A stretch of DNA of 64,000 nt from Solitalea canadensis DSM 3403 (lineage in GTDB: Bacteria > Bacteroidota > Bacteroidia > Sphingobacteriales > Sphingobacteriaceae). The notes under the pieces were generated by a model, which did no database searches, was not told where the DNA came from, and saw only the letters and a program-made list of their open reading frames with translations. Numbering within the stretch: position 1 is the first letter of the stretch; each line of letters starts with the position of its first letter. Below are positions 33,139-35,923 of this stretch, piece by piece. The position numbers and the translations under genes were made by a program. The stretch spans positions 558,001 to 622,000 of the forward strand of contig NC_017770.1 in the NCBI RefSeq assembly GCF_000242635.2, in the 5' to 3' direction.

Positions 33139-34641
33139 ATGATTAAAAGAAATATCTATAAATGGCATCGTTCCCTAAGTGTATTAATTGCCTTGCCGGT
33201 AATTATGTGGACGCTCAGCGGAATTATGCATCCTGTAATGACATCCTTTAAACCAAAGGTGAAAAATCAGTTTTTGGCTTCGGAGAATATTGATTTGTCA
33301 AAAGCTAAAATTCCCTTGGATGCGGCATTACTTAACAATCATATAACTACTATATCAAATTTCCGATTGGTTGAAATAGGAGATAGTCTGTACTATCAAA
33401 TTATGAAGTATGATGATCAATTGCTTTATATTAATGCAGAAACCGGAATTCTAAACAAATATGCAGAAGAGAGGTATGCAAAAAAGATTGCCCAGCAATT
33501 GTTAGGGGACTCAACTTCTAAGGCTGTTTCAGTAGAGCTACTAAAGGATTTTGATGAAGAATATTTAGCTATTAACCGATTGCTCCCGGTTTACAAAGTT
33601 TCTTTCGATCGTGCGGATGGAATAAGGTTATATGTCGATGCAACAACCGACCGCTTAGGTTTGGCGATGGATAATAATCGGGCAATATTTCATTCTTTCT
33701 TTCGAAATTTTCATAGTTGGGAGTTTTTAGATCATCTGGGAAATTTCAGGTTGTTTACACTCACCCTGATAGCTTCCATTGCTTTTGTAACTGCAATACT
33801 AGGTATTTATATCACCTTTATTACTAAATCTAACAAGGCAAAGAGCAATCAGAATTCTTCGGTAAAATACCGTAGACTACATCGTCAAATTGCCATTGTT
33901 GTTTCGATAACAACCTTGATGTTTACATTTAGTGGCGCCTACCATGCTATAGTGAAAATTGAGCCAGATACTCGTCAGAATTATTTTGTTAAAAATGATT
34001 TTAACGTTACTGAACTGAAGTTTGATTTGGATTCTGTTGCGAAACGTTACCAAGTTAAAAACATCTCCATCATAAAGATGAATGACACCACTTATTTGCG
34101 TTTAAGCTGCTCAGCTGATAAAGGCTTTAATAAGGAAGCGTGTTGTGAGAAAATGTTGGTTGCCGCATCTAAATTTGGACTTGAAAAGAAAAAGGATGCC
34201 CCGGTTATTCATTATTTAAGTCTCCATTCATTAACAGAATTAGCCAATGGTGATGTGCAATATGCACGTTTCATGGCTGAAAAATTCAGCAAAAATGAAG
34301 ATATAGTTTCAGTCACGCCGATTACAGAGTTCAAAGGCGAATACGGTTTTATTAATAAACGTTTACCAGTTTACAAGGTTCAATATAAAGCTAATGATAA
34401 TGAACGCTGGTACGTAGAACCCTCAACAGGTGAACTGGCTGCCAAAATTAACGACACAAACCTACGCGAAGGATTGAGCTTTGCCATGCTGCACAAGTTT
34501 CATTTCGTCGATGATATAGGAAAAACAACCCGAGATGTATTAACAGTAATAGCAGCTTTAGGAAATTTAGCAGTAGCGTTAATTGGCATTGTTCTACTAG
34601 TGTTTTGGTATAAGAAAAAGTACATAAAAGCAAGAGTATAA
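33139..34641 (+). CDS. PepSY-associated membrane protein
   Basis: 500 residues. It opens KRNIYKWHRSLSVLIALPVIMWTLSG (the W-H-R and helix-1 form of PepSY_TM proteins), then periplasmic PepSY-like segments (YLAINRLLPVYKVSFDRADG, a second RLPVYKVQYKANDNERW), internal helices and a C-terminal helix (GNLAVALIGIVLLVFWYKKK). Such proteins often accompany TonB receptors and may reduce ferric iron in the inner membrane. The stop codon at 34639-34641 directly touches repeat copy A. Confidence 0.85.
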   Translation: MIKRNIYKWHRSLSVLIALPVIMWTLSGIMHPVMTSFKPKVKNQFLASENIDLSKAKIPLDAALLNNHITTISNFRLVEIGDSLYYQIMKYDDQLLYINAETGILNKYAEERYAKKIAQQLLGDSTSKAVSVELLKDFDEEYLAINRLLPVYKVSFDRADGIRLYVDATTDRLGLAMDNNRAIFHSFFRNFHSWEFLDHLGNFRLFTLTLIASIAFVTAILGIYITFITKSNKAKSNQNSSVKYRRLHRQIAIVVSITTLMFTFSGAYHAIVKIEPDTRQNYFVKNDFNVTELKFDLDSVAKRYQVKNISIIKMNDTTYLRLSCSADKGFNKEACCEKMLVAASKFGLEKKKDAPVIHYLSLHSLTELANGDVQYARFMAEKFSKNEDIVSVTPITEFKGEYGFINKRLPVYKVQYKANDNERWYVEPSTGELAAKINDTNLREGLSFAMLHKFHFVDDIGKTTRDVLTVIAALGNLAVALIGIVLLVFWYKKKYIKARV

Positions 34642-34805
34642 CCTCACCCTAAATCCCTCTCCTCAAGGAGAGGGACTTTGAGACAGTGCTTTCAATTGAT
34701 CAGTGCTTCAATATTGATTAGTCTTTTGTTTCAGTCAATTAAACAAGCGATTAAAACATTCCGAGCGCTCCCTTCTCCTTAAGGAGAAGGGCCGGGGATT
34801 AGGTG
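34642..34805. repeat. Bipartite hairpin repeat, copy A
   Basis: 164-base element. Its first 54 bases are identical to copy B (35254-35307), and its last 48 bases differ from copy B at two positions. It carries a 10-base hairpin (34654-34675), a variable centre of about 60 bases, and a perfect 22-base palindrome (34770-34791). The ends are imperfect inverted repeats (CACCCTAAATCCC against GGGGATTAGGTG). It starts on the base after the PepSY stop codon and ends one base before the DUF559 stop codon. Confidence 0.92.
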
Positions 34806-34806
34806 A

Positions 34807-35172
34807 TCAAGCTATTTCCCCCAAAATCCTCATCAAAACATAATTTAAATCATACATAACCTCATCATTACTAAACCGAACAATTGTCAATCCCAATTCC
34901 CTCAGCTCAAAAGATCTTCCTTCATCATATTCTTGCTGTTCTTTTGTTAAGTGATATCCGCCATCAACCTCAATGATTAATTTATGAGAATGCGCATAAA
35001 AATCCACGATATAAGTAAGAATTGGATGTTGACGACGAAATTTTATCCCATTTAAATTTCGATCTCTTAAACAATTCCAAAGTAAATCTTCAGCTGCAGT
35101 AGATCTTTTACGTAATAATCGAGCTTTTTCAAAAAGAGAGGGATATGCATCAAAATGCAAAGAGTCATTCAT
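34807..35172 (-). CDS. DUF559 protein, Vsr-like nuclease fold
   Basis: 121 residues of the DUF559 family, which shares the Vsr/restriction-endonuclease-like fold. Visible family motifs: RKRSTAAEDLLWNCLRD (E28), KFRRQHPI (45-51), YIVDFYA (D57) and LIIEVDGGYH (E68, D70, H74), then GLTIVRFSNDEV. D57 with E68-x-D70 suits a metal-dependent nuclease site; activity is not shown for this protein. The gene sits inside two direct copies of a hairpin repeat, with copy A touching its 3' end and copy B 81 bases 5' of its start. Confidence 0.88.
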   Translation of the reverse strand: MNDSLHFDAYPSLFEKARLLRKRSTAAEDLLWNCLRDRNLNGIKFRRQHPILTYIVDFYAHSHKLIIEVDGGYHLTKEQQEYDEGRSFELRELGLTIVRFSNDEVMYDLNYVLMRILGEIA

Positions 35173-35253
35173 AATAAAAATAGATAGCCTGTAACGTTCA
35201 ATTAGAACAATCGCTATTTACAACGTTTGAGTGAAAAAATCAAGCACCTCACA

Positions 35254-35401
35254 CCTCACCCTAAATCCCTCTCCTCAAGGAGAGGGACTTTGAGACAGTG
35301 CTTTCAAATACGTTTAATTCGTATTGTTCATTCATGTATTCAAACGATTAAGTATTCCGAGGGCTCCCTTCTCCTTAAGGAGAAGGGCCGGGGATGAGGT
35401 G
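35254..35401. repeat. Bipartite hairpin repeat, copy B
   Basis: 148-base direct repeat of copy A, with the same two conserved ends and two hairpins but a different centre (about 45 bases, with its own AATACG/CGTATT hairpin). Its last base directly touches the TAA stop of the lipocalin gene on the minus strand (35402-35404). Conserved ends with a divergent middle suggest an element defined by its ends rather than a simple duplication. Confidence 0.92.
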
Positions 35402-35923
35402 TTATAGCGTTGGATCAATCCTCTGTTGCGAATTTTCCGGTTCATGATCTTGAGAAACCAATCGATCCGTATTATAACCTTTATCCTTACACCTTCTGAT
35501 AATATCCTGAAAAAGCTTTGGCTCCAGGAAAGGCCTTCTTGATAAGATAAATAGCCATTTCTTTTTAGGGTGACCAACTACCGCATAAGAATAATCATCA
35601 GCCAATTCAATTATCCAATAGTCACTTTTGAAAGGCCATACGAACTGAATTTTCCATGCAGCATTGTTAGTTCCTCGAACAATAAAACCTTTTGCTGTTG
35701 AAGACTGCTGAATGCGATCCTTTATTCTTCGGTAAGTGGTAAGAATATCAATATAACCCTTTGAATTGATGCGATAGGTTTGCGTTGTTTCACGCCAGTT
35801 ATTATCGAACCCAGTTGGGATTGAGGAAAGGGAATACCATTTACCGGAAAATTTTTCCAGGTTTACAGATTGAACCGTTCCATCCATTGAACTGCTTTGG
35901 CACGCTATGCTGAGAATAATCAT
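35402..35923 (-). CDS. Lipocalin (Blc-like)
   Basis: 173 residues. Lipocalin motif 1 is EKFSGKWYSLSSIP (GxW) and the Blc signature is YAVVGHPKKKWLFILSRRPF. Bacterial lipocalins bind lysolipids or fatty acids at the outer membrane. The N-terminus (MIILSIACQS) looks like a lipobox preceded by too short a signal; an out-of-frame ATG upstream would give MHIILLIT ahead of it if one base near 35924-35930 were lost, so the start may be frameshifted. The stop codon touches repeat copy B. Confidence 0.82.
   Translation of the reverse strand: MIILSIACQSSSMDGTVQSVNLEKFSGKWYSLSSIPTGFDNNWRETTQTYRINSKGYIDILTTYRRIKDRIQQSSTAKGFIVRGTNNAAWKIQFVWPFKSDYWIIELADDYSYAVVGHPKKKWLFILSRRPFLEPKLFQDIIRRCKDKGYNTDRLVSQDHEPENSQQRIDPTL

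Follow-up and report, generated by a model that had tools for sequence, protein, structure and literature searches.

A DUF559 nuclease gene between paired BoxC/PIT/TM-type repeats in Solitalea canadensis as a probable locus of a REPIN/RAYT-like system

A 760-bp island in the genome of Solitalea canadensis DSM 3403 is probably the locus of a REPIN/RAYT-like system, in which a DUF559 nuclease with the Vsr fold would mobilise short palindromic repeats of the BoxC/PIT/TM type (probability about 0.6). The island belongs to the window, which is the whole stretch of 64,000 nucleotides that was analysed (contig NC_017770.1, positions 558,001 to 622,000), and all window coordinates are counted from its first letter. 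This reading builds on the association of DUF559 genes with palindromic repeats, the cognate pairing of gene and palindrome type, the presence/absence polymorphism of the elements, and the occurrence of whole elements in-frame within longer proteins with the active site conserved.

The original prediction described two direct repeat copies around a DUF559 gene, and its coordinates, hairpins and residues were all confirmed. The features of the island are the following.

34642–35401, no strand assigned: whole island, consisting of element 1, the DUF559 gene and element 2, between two converging stop codons
34641–34804, plus strand: element 1, a complete paired type A and type B triplex-motif repeat of 164 bp
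34641–34649, plus strand: left terminal tag of element 1, ACCTCACCC, an approximate mirror of the hairpin arm (the mirror test was run on other hairpins)
34654–34675, plus strand: hairpin A of element 1, with a 10-bp stem and the pyrimidine arm first
34770–34791, plus strand: hairpin B of element 1, a perfect 22-base palindrome
34792–34804, plus strand: right terminal tag of element 1, CCG followed by GGGATTAGGT, type B (type B naming from PMC4666352)
34807–35172, minus strand: gene for a DUF559/Vsr-like PD-(D/E)XK nuclease of 121 amino acids, with D57 and E68-x-D70 (Pfam DUF559, E 8e-35)
35253–35400, plus strand: element 2, a complete paired triplex-motif repeat of 148 bp
35266–35287, plus strand: hairpin A of element 2
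35366–35387, plus strand: hairpin B of element 2, a perfect 22-base palindrome

The ends of the two copies are conserved as predicted, with full identity across the leftmost 55 bases and 91% identity across 55 bases at the right. Each copy carries a 10-bp hairpin (TCCCTCTCCT-CA-AGGAGAGGGA) near its left end and a perfect 22-base palindrome (CCCTTCTCCTTAAGGAGAAGGG) near its right end, and the element ends form imperfect inverted repeats (ACCTCACCC / GGGATGAGGT). Computed hairpin folding of element 2 as single-stranded DNA gave -27 kcal/mol (z -4.5), and the ends of element 1, folded singly, gave z values of -2.6 and -1.6.

The syntenic site in G002, a genome of the same genus, lacks the 760-bp island. 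A PepSY-type gene and a lipocalin-like gene stand 44 bp apart there, followed by malate dehydrogenase (names given from the sequences, not by family search), and the gene order is that of the window without repeats or DUF559. A search of the G002 genome returned no PF04480 match and no exact palindrome; the same-genus genomes G001 and G003 contain DUF559 matches, and the exact window-type palindrome is absent from both.

Two other roles for the elements were considered and rejected. A terminator or insulator role is not supported, since no intrinsic terminator was found at 34500–35500 and elsewhere the elements sit within reading frames. A structured RNA was rejected as all Rfam matches were sub-threshold, the best being the whalefall-1 RNA (RF01762), which the left ends match at 34640–34676 and 35252–35288, both on the minus strand, with 28.7 and 26.2 bits against a gathering threshold of 37. 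The whalefall-1 family itself may be this DNA repeat.

The window palindrome occurs at 41 genomic places with up to two mismatches and its reversed pattern at none, therefore it is not a chance pattern. An end-to-end pattern identified 10 complete elements of 84–214 bp with fixed ends and free centres, two of them nested with a common right end, in addition to lone halves; the expectation of many copies with conserved ends is thus borne out in this genome. Out of 33 palindromes in 22 fetched regions, one is located within a reading frame of at least 100 amino acids, 21 are nearest a stop codon (13 of these within 25 bp) and 11 nearest a start. Several findings in the same genome count against the main reading. 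No target-site duplication, a feature of DNA transposons with MITEs, was found in the 10 complete elements when they were inspected by eye for shared flanks of at least 3 bases. Furthermore, of the three other DUF559 loci in the genome, L042 and L044 are without pyrimidine-arm palindromes, and L043 has two palindromes with 7-bp stems on one side only, of a different type (CCCCTCTC). The DUF559 gene of L044 (G000:C1:2912967-2913316) is matched as two neighbouring segments and appears to be broken.

Judged by their sequence, the repeats belong to the BoxC/PIT/TM family, and the window elements have that build. According to the available text of Holder et al. 2015 (PMC4666352), the BoxC/PIT/TM intrastrand triplex motif is a hairpin with a 3-nt loop, TTA in type A or CCG in type B, and then GGGTGAGG, and the two types are paired in inverted orientation at five sites. 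The same text traces knowledge of these repeats back to the 1990s, places them in more than 260 genomes, connects them with genome instability, and reports that no mobility gene was found near them. They share with the window elements the pyrimidine-arm G/C-rich hairpin, the short loop, the mirror-like tag GGGTGAGG and the inverted A/B pair, which is present in the other complete copies as well, with a type A loop of TTTA instead of TTA. In E. coli they are reported there as always intergenic, whereas the repeats described here have a partner nuclease gene and form whole elements in-frame. The original prediction had regarded the system as undescribed, which does not hold for the repeats, as they match BoxC/PIT/TM, and does hold for the partner gene, which was what was missing. 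The available text of PMC4666352 contains no mention of DUF559, endonuclease or ycjD, and no paper linking DUF559 (COG2852, ycjD) with BoxC, triplex or REP/RAYT repeats was found in a partial literature survey, with subscription papers and preprints outside its scope.

The build of the system, with paired inverted hairpins, a free centre, a gene between its own repeats and many short copies, is that of REPINs and RAYTs with a different enzyme. The available part of PMC3733652 describes REP/REPIN and RAYT loci (REPtrons) as dispersed short, often paired hairpin repeats with an enzyme gene that has repeats of its own type on either side, and both features are found here. RAYT is a tyrosine transposase (PMC3733652, available part), whereas the enzyme here is a PD-(D/E)XK nuclease, and the tag and hairpin sequences appear to differ. 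REP/RAYT hairpins have GTAG or CGTC at their foot, and the tag here is CCTCACCC; CCTC is a variant of CGTC listed in the accessible part of that paper, and the stem is another one. Because the tyrosine transposase is absent, the system is not a member of REP/RAYT.

The window protein is predicted to be a Vsr-fold PD-(D/E)XK endonuclease. Its Pfam matches are only DUF559 and a sub-cut-off MTES_1575. No change at D57, E68 or D70 is found among 22 aligned sequences that include the window protein, and in an alignment of 45 sequences (window included) drawn from 63 candidates D57 is invariant and E68 and D70 are conserved at 90% or more. The predicted model (pLDDT 88) is closest to the DUF559 entry 3hrl (Z 16.8), followed by the homing endonuclease I-Bth0305I (Z 12.7) and Vsr (Z 10.1), and the match to TnsA (Z 6.5) is too low to weigh. 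A profile match was obtained to 3r3p (E 1.6e-4); among the PDB profiles, enterotoxin B chains also matched (E of 0.2 or more), which was attributed to chance. There was no tyrosine transposase match, and the structure matches of the model agree with the earlier view of a restriction-endonuclease-like (Vsr) fold rather than a transposase.

The window protein would thus share its fold with I-Bth0305I and Vsr, which are not known to be tied to dispersed palindromic repeats. Their place as the nearest solved structures after 3hrl, along with the 3r3p match to the homing fold family, favours a homing-type process, in which DUF559 would cut a conserved empty site and double-strand-break repair would copy the element in, by analogy with the homing endonucleases of introns and inteins, the short repeats being decayed remnants. 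We consider this unlikely, as homing does not predict that nearly all copies lie at unrelated intergenic sites, as they do in this genome (only 1 of the 33 palindromes is in a reading frame), and no common target sequence was seen.

The association of DUF559 genes with palindromic repeats is near certain. At 135 of 158 distinct DUF559 loci from many phyla, which are not independent as genomes contribute several each, pyrimidine-arm palindromes (loop up to 8) lie within 300 bp of the domain, and at 82 loci they are present on both sides. The other 23 loci, without such a palindrome nearby, count against the main reading. Among the 80 Bacteroidota loci, taken as 30 given first and then in listing order with lower-scoring ones left out, 18 have no such palindrome, 25 have them on one side and 37 on both (62 with palindromes); eight candidates were passed over, three as duplicates or as coming from this genome and five as lying near a contig start. 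For the other set, 84,980 species were scanned with one genome each, which gave 190 confirmed loci, and the best 80 of these were used. The set spans candidate phyla, Planctomycetota, Spirochaetota, Proteobacteria, Deinococcota, Acidobacteriota and others, with 18 loci from Bradyrhizobium. Its 78 loci from many phyla comprise 5 with no palindrome, 28 with palindromes on one side and 45 on both (73 with palindromes), after the two loci common to both sets (L231/L166 and L233/L163) were removed to give 158; the 160-locus tally is 23 none, 53 one side and 84 both. One locus (L125) contains a run of N.

The controls gave a different picture. The 160 loci, duplicates included, yielded 1154 further reading frames; with the same loop limit, none of these had palindromes on both sides, 59 had them on one side and 1095 had none. 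Among 11731 random places more than 2 kb off (loop up to 6), 7 were flanked on both sides and 357 on one. An effect of the local neighbourhood is therefore rejected (both-side palindromes at 7/11731 random places and 0/1154 reading frames). The density of pyrimidine-arm palindromes in Bacteroidota (loop up to 6) is 4.25/kb at 0–100 bp from the domain and 0.043/kb at 4–8 kb, and in the other set (loop up to 8, duplicates included) 5.9/kb at 0–100 bp against 0.05–0.08/kb beyond 500 bp. Palindromes without a pyrimidine arm are enriched at 0–100 bp too, to a lesser degree (1.06 against 0.24/kb in Bacteroidota, 1.45 against 0.41/kb in the other set), which counts against the main reading. These counts bear out the claim that, across many phyla, DUF559 domains adjoin such repeats at a rate far above chance (135/158 loci, with 0/1154 controls flanked on both sides). 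In addition, G/C-rich hairpins near DUF559 with the pyrimidine arm first, as in BoxC/PIT/TM, number 276, against none with the purine arm first at matching thresholds. About half of them have a mirror tag of the kind that could supply a third strand: at least 7 of 8 mirror matches occur in 133 of the 276, compared with 64 of 276 in the direct-repeat control, and at a limit of at least 6 matches the numbers are 168 and 158 (duplicates included).

The arrangement also extends to plasmids, with matching palindromes on both sides of the gene in Deinococcus aetherius and on one side in Synechocystis B12; on plasmids of Pseudanabaena, two Picosynechococcus and Azospirillum, no nearby palindromes passed the 85% threshold. 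Similarly, DUF559 genes of the Caulobacter group lie between matching palindromes in three genomes (L256, L276 and L280).

The palindrome type goes with the DUF559 gene, as had been claimed, on the evidence of arm agreement within loci and of the distribution of the Bradyrhizobium palindrome. Left and right arms have a mean similarity of 0.755 within a locus and 0.415 between loci, and they are identical in 25 of 78 within-locus comparisons versus 94 of 6006 cross pairs (duplicates included). Hairpin similarity tracks protein similarity (Mantel r 0.337 overall and 0.123 for dissimilar proteins, with 0 of 499 permutations as high), a correlation which genome relatedness could partly explain and which, like the genome counts and the E. 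coli contrast below, is a raw statistic that ignores phylogeny. Within the 30 of 80 loci covered (13 of the 18 from Bradyrhizobium), the Bradyrhizobium palindrome is present in 6–84 copies in all 13 Bradyrhizobium genomes given, absent from 16 of 17 others and present once in the remaining one. The converse is weaker, as CCCTCTCC palindromes occur in 25 of the 30 genomes, with 0–31 copies in Bradyrhizobium, and this partial reciprocity counts against the main reading. The genome of L305 harbours 509 CCCTCTCC palindromes, and its DUF559 gene is flanked by that type.

Such gene-specific pairing bears on the idea of a passenger, a small gene trapped between recombination-prone repeats that another agent spreads, with no functional link between the two. 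The repeats do occur without the gene, and 23 of the 158 loci have no repeats; however, a trapped passenger would not belong to a single family across many phyla and be bordered left and right by matching palindromes specific to the gene, and among the 1154 remaining reading frames of these loci not one is flanked in this way. We regard this explanation as very improbable.

Among 60 relatives, all 11 genomes with at least three exact palindromes have a DUF559 match, compared with 32 of the 60 overall, and three genomes without a DUF559 match have one palindrome each. In a wider set of 392 Bacteroidota genomes, 79 carry CCCTCTCC(N2-6)GGAGAGGG, and a PF04480 match is found in 64 of these 79 versus 158 of the 313 without it (odds ratio 4.2, p 4e-7), rising to 26 of 29 genomes with at least five copies. 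The expectation that genomes lacking the gene would have no repeats failed: 15 of the 79 genomes have no PF04480 match, including G140 (32 copies) and G060 (12), and in E. coli the 23 sampled records that lack the ycjD-fabI spacer nevertheless have 1–16 matches. Dependence of the repeats on the gene is thus not strict. In G140 (L316, L322), many of the 32 CCCTCTCC palindromes are clustered 40–90 bp apart.

In E. coli, sapF and fabI flank the DUF559 gene ycjD, and BoxC-like repeats follow immediately downstream. The gene is reported from phylogroups A, B1 and C and from ST69 and ST182, its place being taken elsewhere by an efflux operon (PMC12817139, available part). With the 115-bp ycjD-fabI spacer, which stands in for the gene, as query, 37 records with at least 80% of the spacer matched at a median of 15 places (7–22) and 23 records without it at a median of 3 (1–16), a contrast that lineage confounds (Mann-Whitney p 1e-9, or 2e-8 after subtracting 2 places for the locus); these 60 records were sampled from those with at least one match, and no match was present in 77 of the 5426 genomes. 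With a 34-nt E. coli TM query, matches were obtained in 4059 of the 5426 genomes, at 1–7 places each. No clean empty site was found in the four inspected E. coli records without ycjD, which carry other genes after sapF (two of them viewed through to fabI). A 45-base inverted repeat is located between sapF and ycjD in L333:2436-2480.

Co-occurrence of gene and repeats would also follow if DUF559 acted in structure-specific repair, removing or resolving the hairpin or triplex DNA of the repeats and moving nothing. This would agree with the variability of TM loci in E. coli and with the block that PIT elements pose to DNA polymerase in vitro (PMC4666352, available text). Moreover, Caulobacter VsrA, which has the same Pfam domain as the window protein and is the one family member for which an in vivo study was found, is needed for the SOS response in a methylase mutant and was read by its authors as a mismatch-repair nuclease (PMC12907096, available text), which counts against the main reading. 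The terms 'palindrom' and 'inverted repeat' have no mentions in the available text of PMC12907096, and the SOS role of VsrA is consistent with a family member that damages DNA in vivo. Repair leaves unexplained why the gene lies between its own palindrome type, why repeats are more numerous where the E. coli locus is present, and why whole elements are found in-frame in LeuRS, MetH and IcmF, and we consider it improbable.

These in-frame elements were found at 18 of the 80 Bacteroidota loci, where the domain is part of a longer frame, preceded by more than 200 amino acids and with more than 250 from domain start to stop. Of the 18, L109 and L183 have no in-frame palindromes (stem of at least 7); the other 16 comprise 8 with such palindromes on both sides and 8 with them on one side. 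A family scan of 12 proteins, 10 of them among the 18, identified as in-frame hosts LeuRS (2), MetH, the fused isobutyryl-CoA mutase IcmF, HsdM, HsdR, Eco57I-type and ISP-type proteins, a UvrD-like helicase and a RecB-like helicase, and the nuclease residues are kept in six aligned in-frame copies. Fusion as a useful domain is possible for DNA enzymes and hard to see for LeuRS, MetH or IcmF. Rickettsia palindromic elements are likewise in-frame in metabolic genes, with the difference that at ~150 bp (PMC10969869, available part) they are too short for a nuclease domain, whereas whole elements here add a nuclease of ~110 amino acids.

The IcmF insert of G312 and G265 has inverted ends around the domain (GCCTCACC...DUF559...GGTGAGGC) and is missing from IcmF in seven other genomes, of which two belong to the same genus. 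The inverted ends with the enzyme gene between them match the full-length element of DNA transposons with MITEs, which carries terminal inverted repeats around its enzyme gene. In the LeuRS loop, compared in 18 genomes, a full element is present in G036, G015 and G050 (two families), a short hairpin pair in G016, halves in G265 and G312 and an apparently decayed piece in G400, and nothing of the kind in G429, G412, G397, G018, G000 and G237. One loop that is full, short-paired, half or empty in this way also speaks for the homing-type process. A different insert of more than 100 amino acids occupies the same loop in the LeuRS of G023 (L198), and the stretch looks like another PD-(D/E)XK nuclease. 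In the LeuRS of G400 and G016 (L187, L199), short hairpin-pair peptides are in-frame at a second site, at the start of the editing domain.

Under the preferred reading of a nuclease that mobilises the repeats, each element is built from two pyrimidine-arm hairpins that stand in inverted orientation about a free centre and bear mirror-like tags on their outer sides. Replication or repair may lay the tag and hairpin open in single-stranded or triplex form. The DUF559 protein would then recognise its own palindrome type and nick or cut at the tag, as cognate pairing, the fold and the conserved active site suggest. Following this, the element would be copied or moved to a new site, often just past a stop codon; occupied and empty sites were found, and the copying step is what we infer from them. 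Finally, short paired elements could move in trans and outlive the gene, to which the dispersed copies and the genomes without the gene point. The DUF559 nuclease is in this respect a candidate for what spreads the repeats.

A broader proposal, whose chances we put slightly short of even, is that DUF559 elements form a widespread, unrecognised class of minimal mobile elements, each with one Vsr-fold nuclease gene between triplex-forming ends. They would generate the BoxC/PIT/TM repeats of many bacteria and would enter essential genes in-frame without splicing, using no known transposase chemistry.

To conclude, nuclease domains annotated inside LeuRS, MetH or IcmF are likely inserts, and the enzyme family that includes E. 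coli YcjD becomes a testable candidate for the mobility of BoxC/PIT/TM repeats. If this holds, a large set of proteins listed as 'domain of unknown function' would gain a role, the repeat class would gain an origin, and mobile elements would gain an enzyme type.
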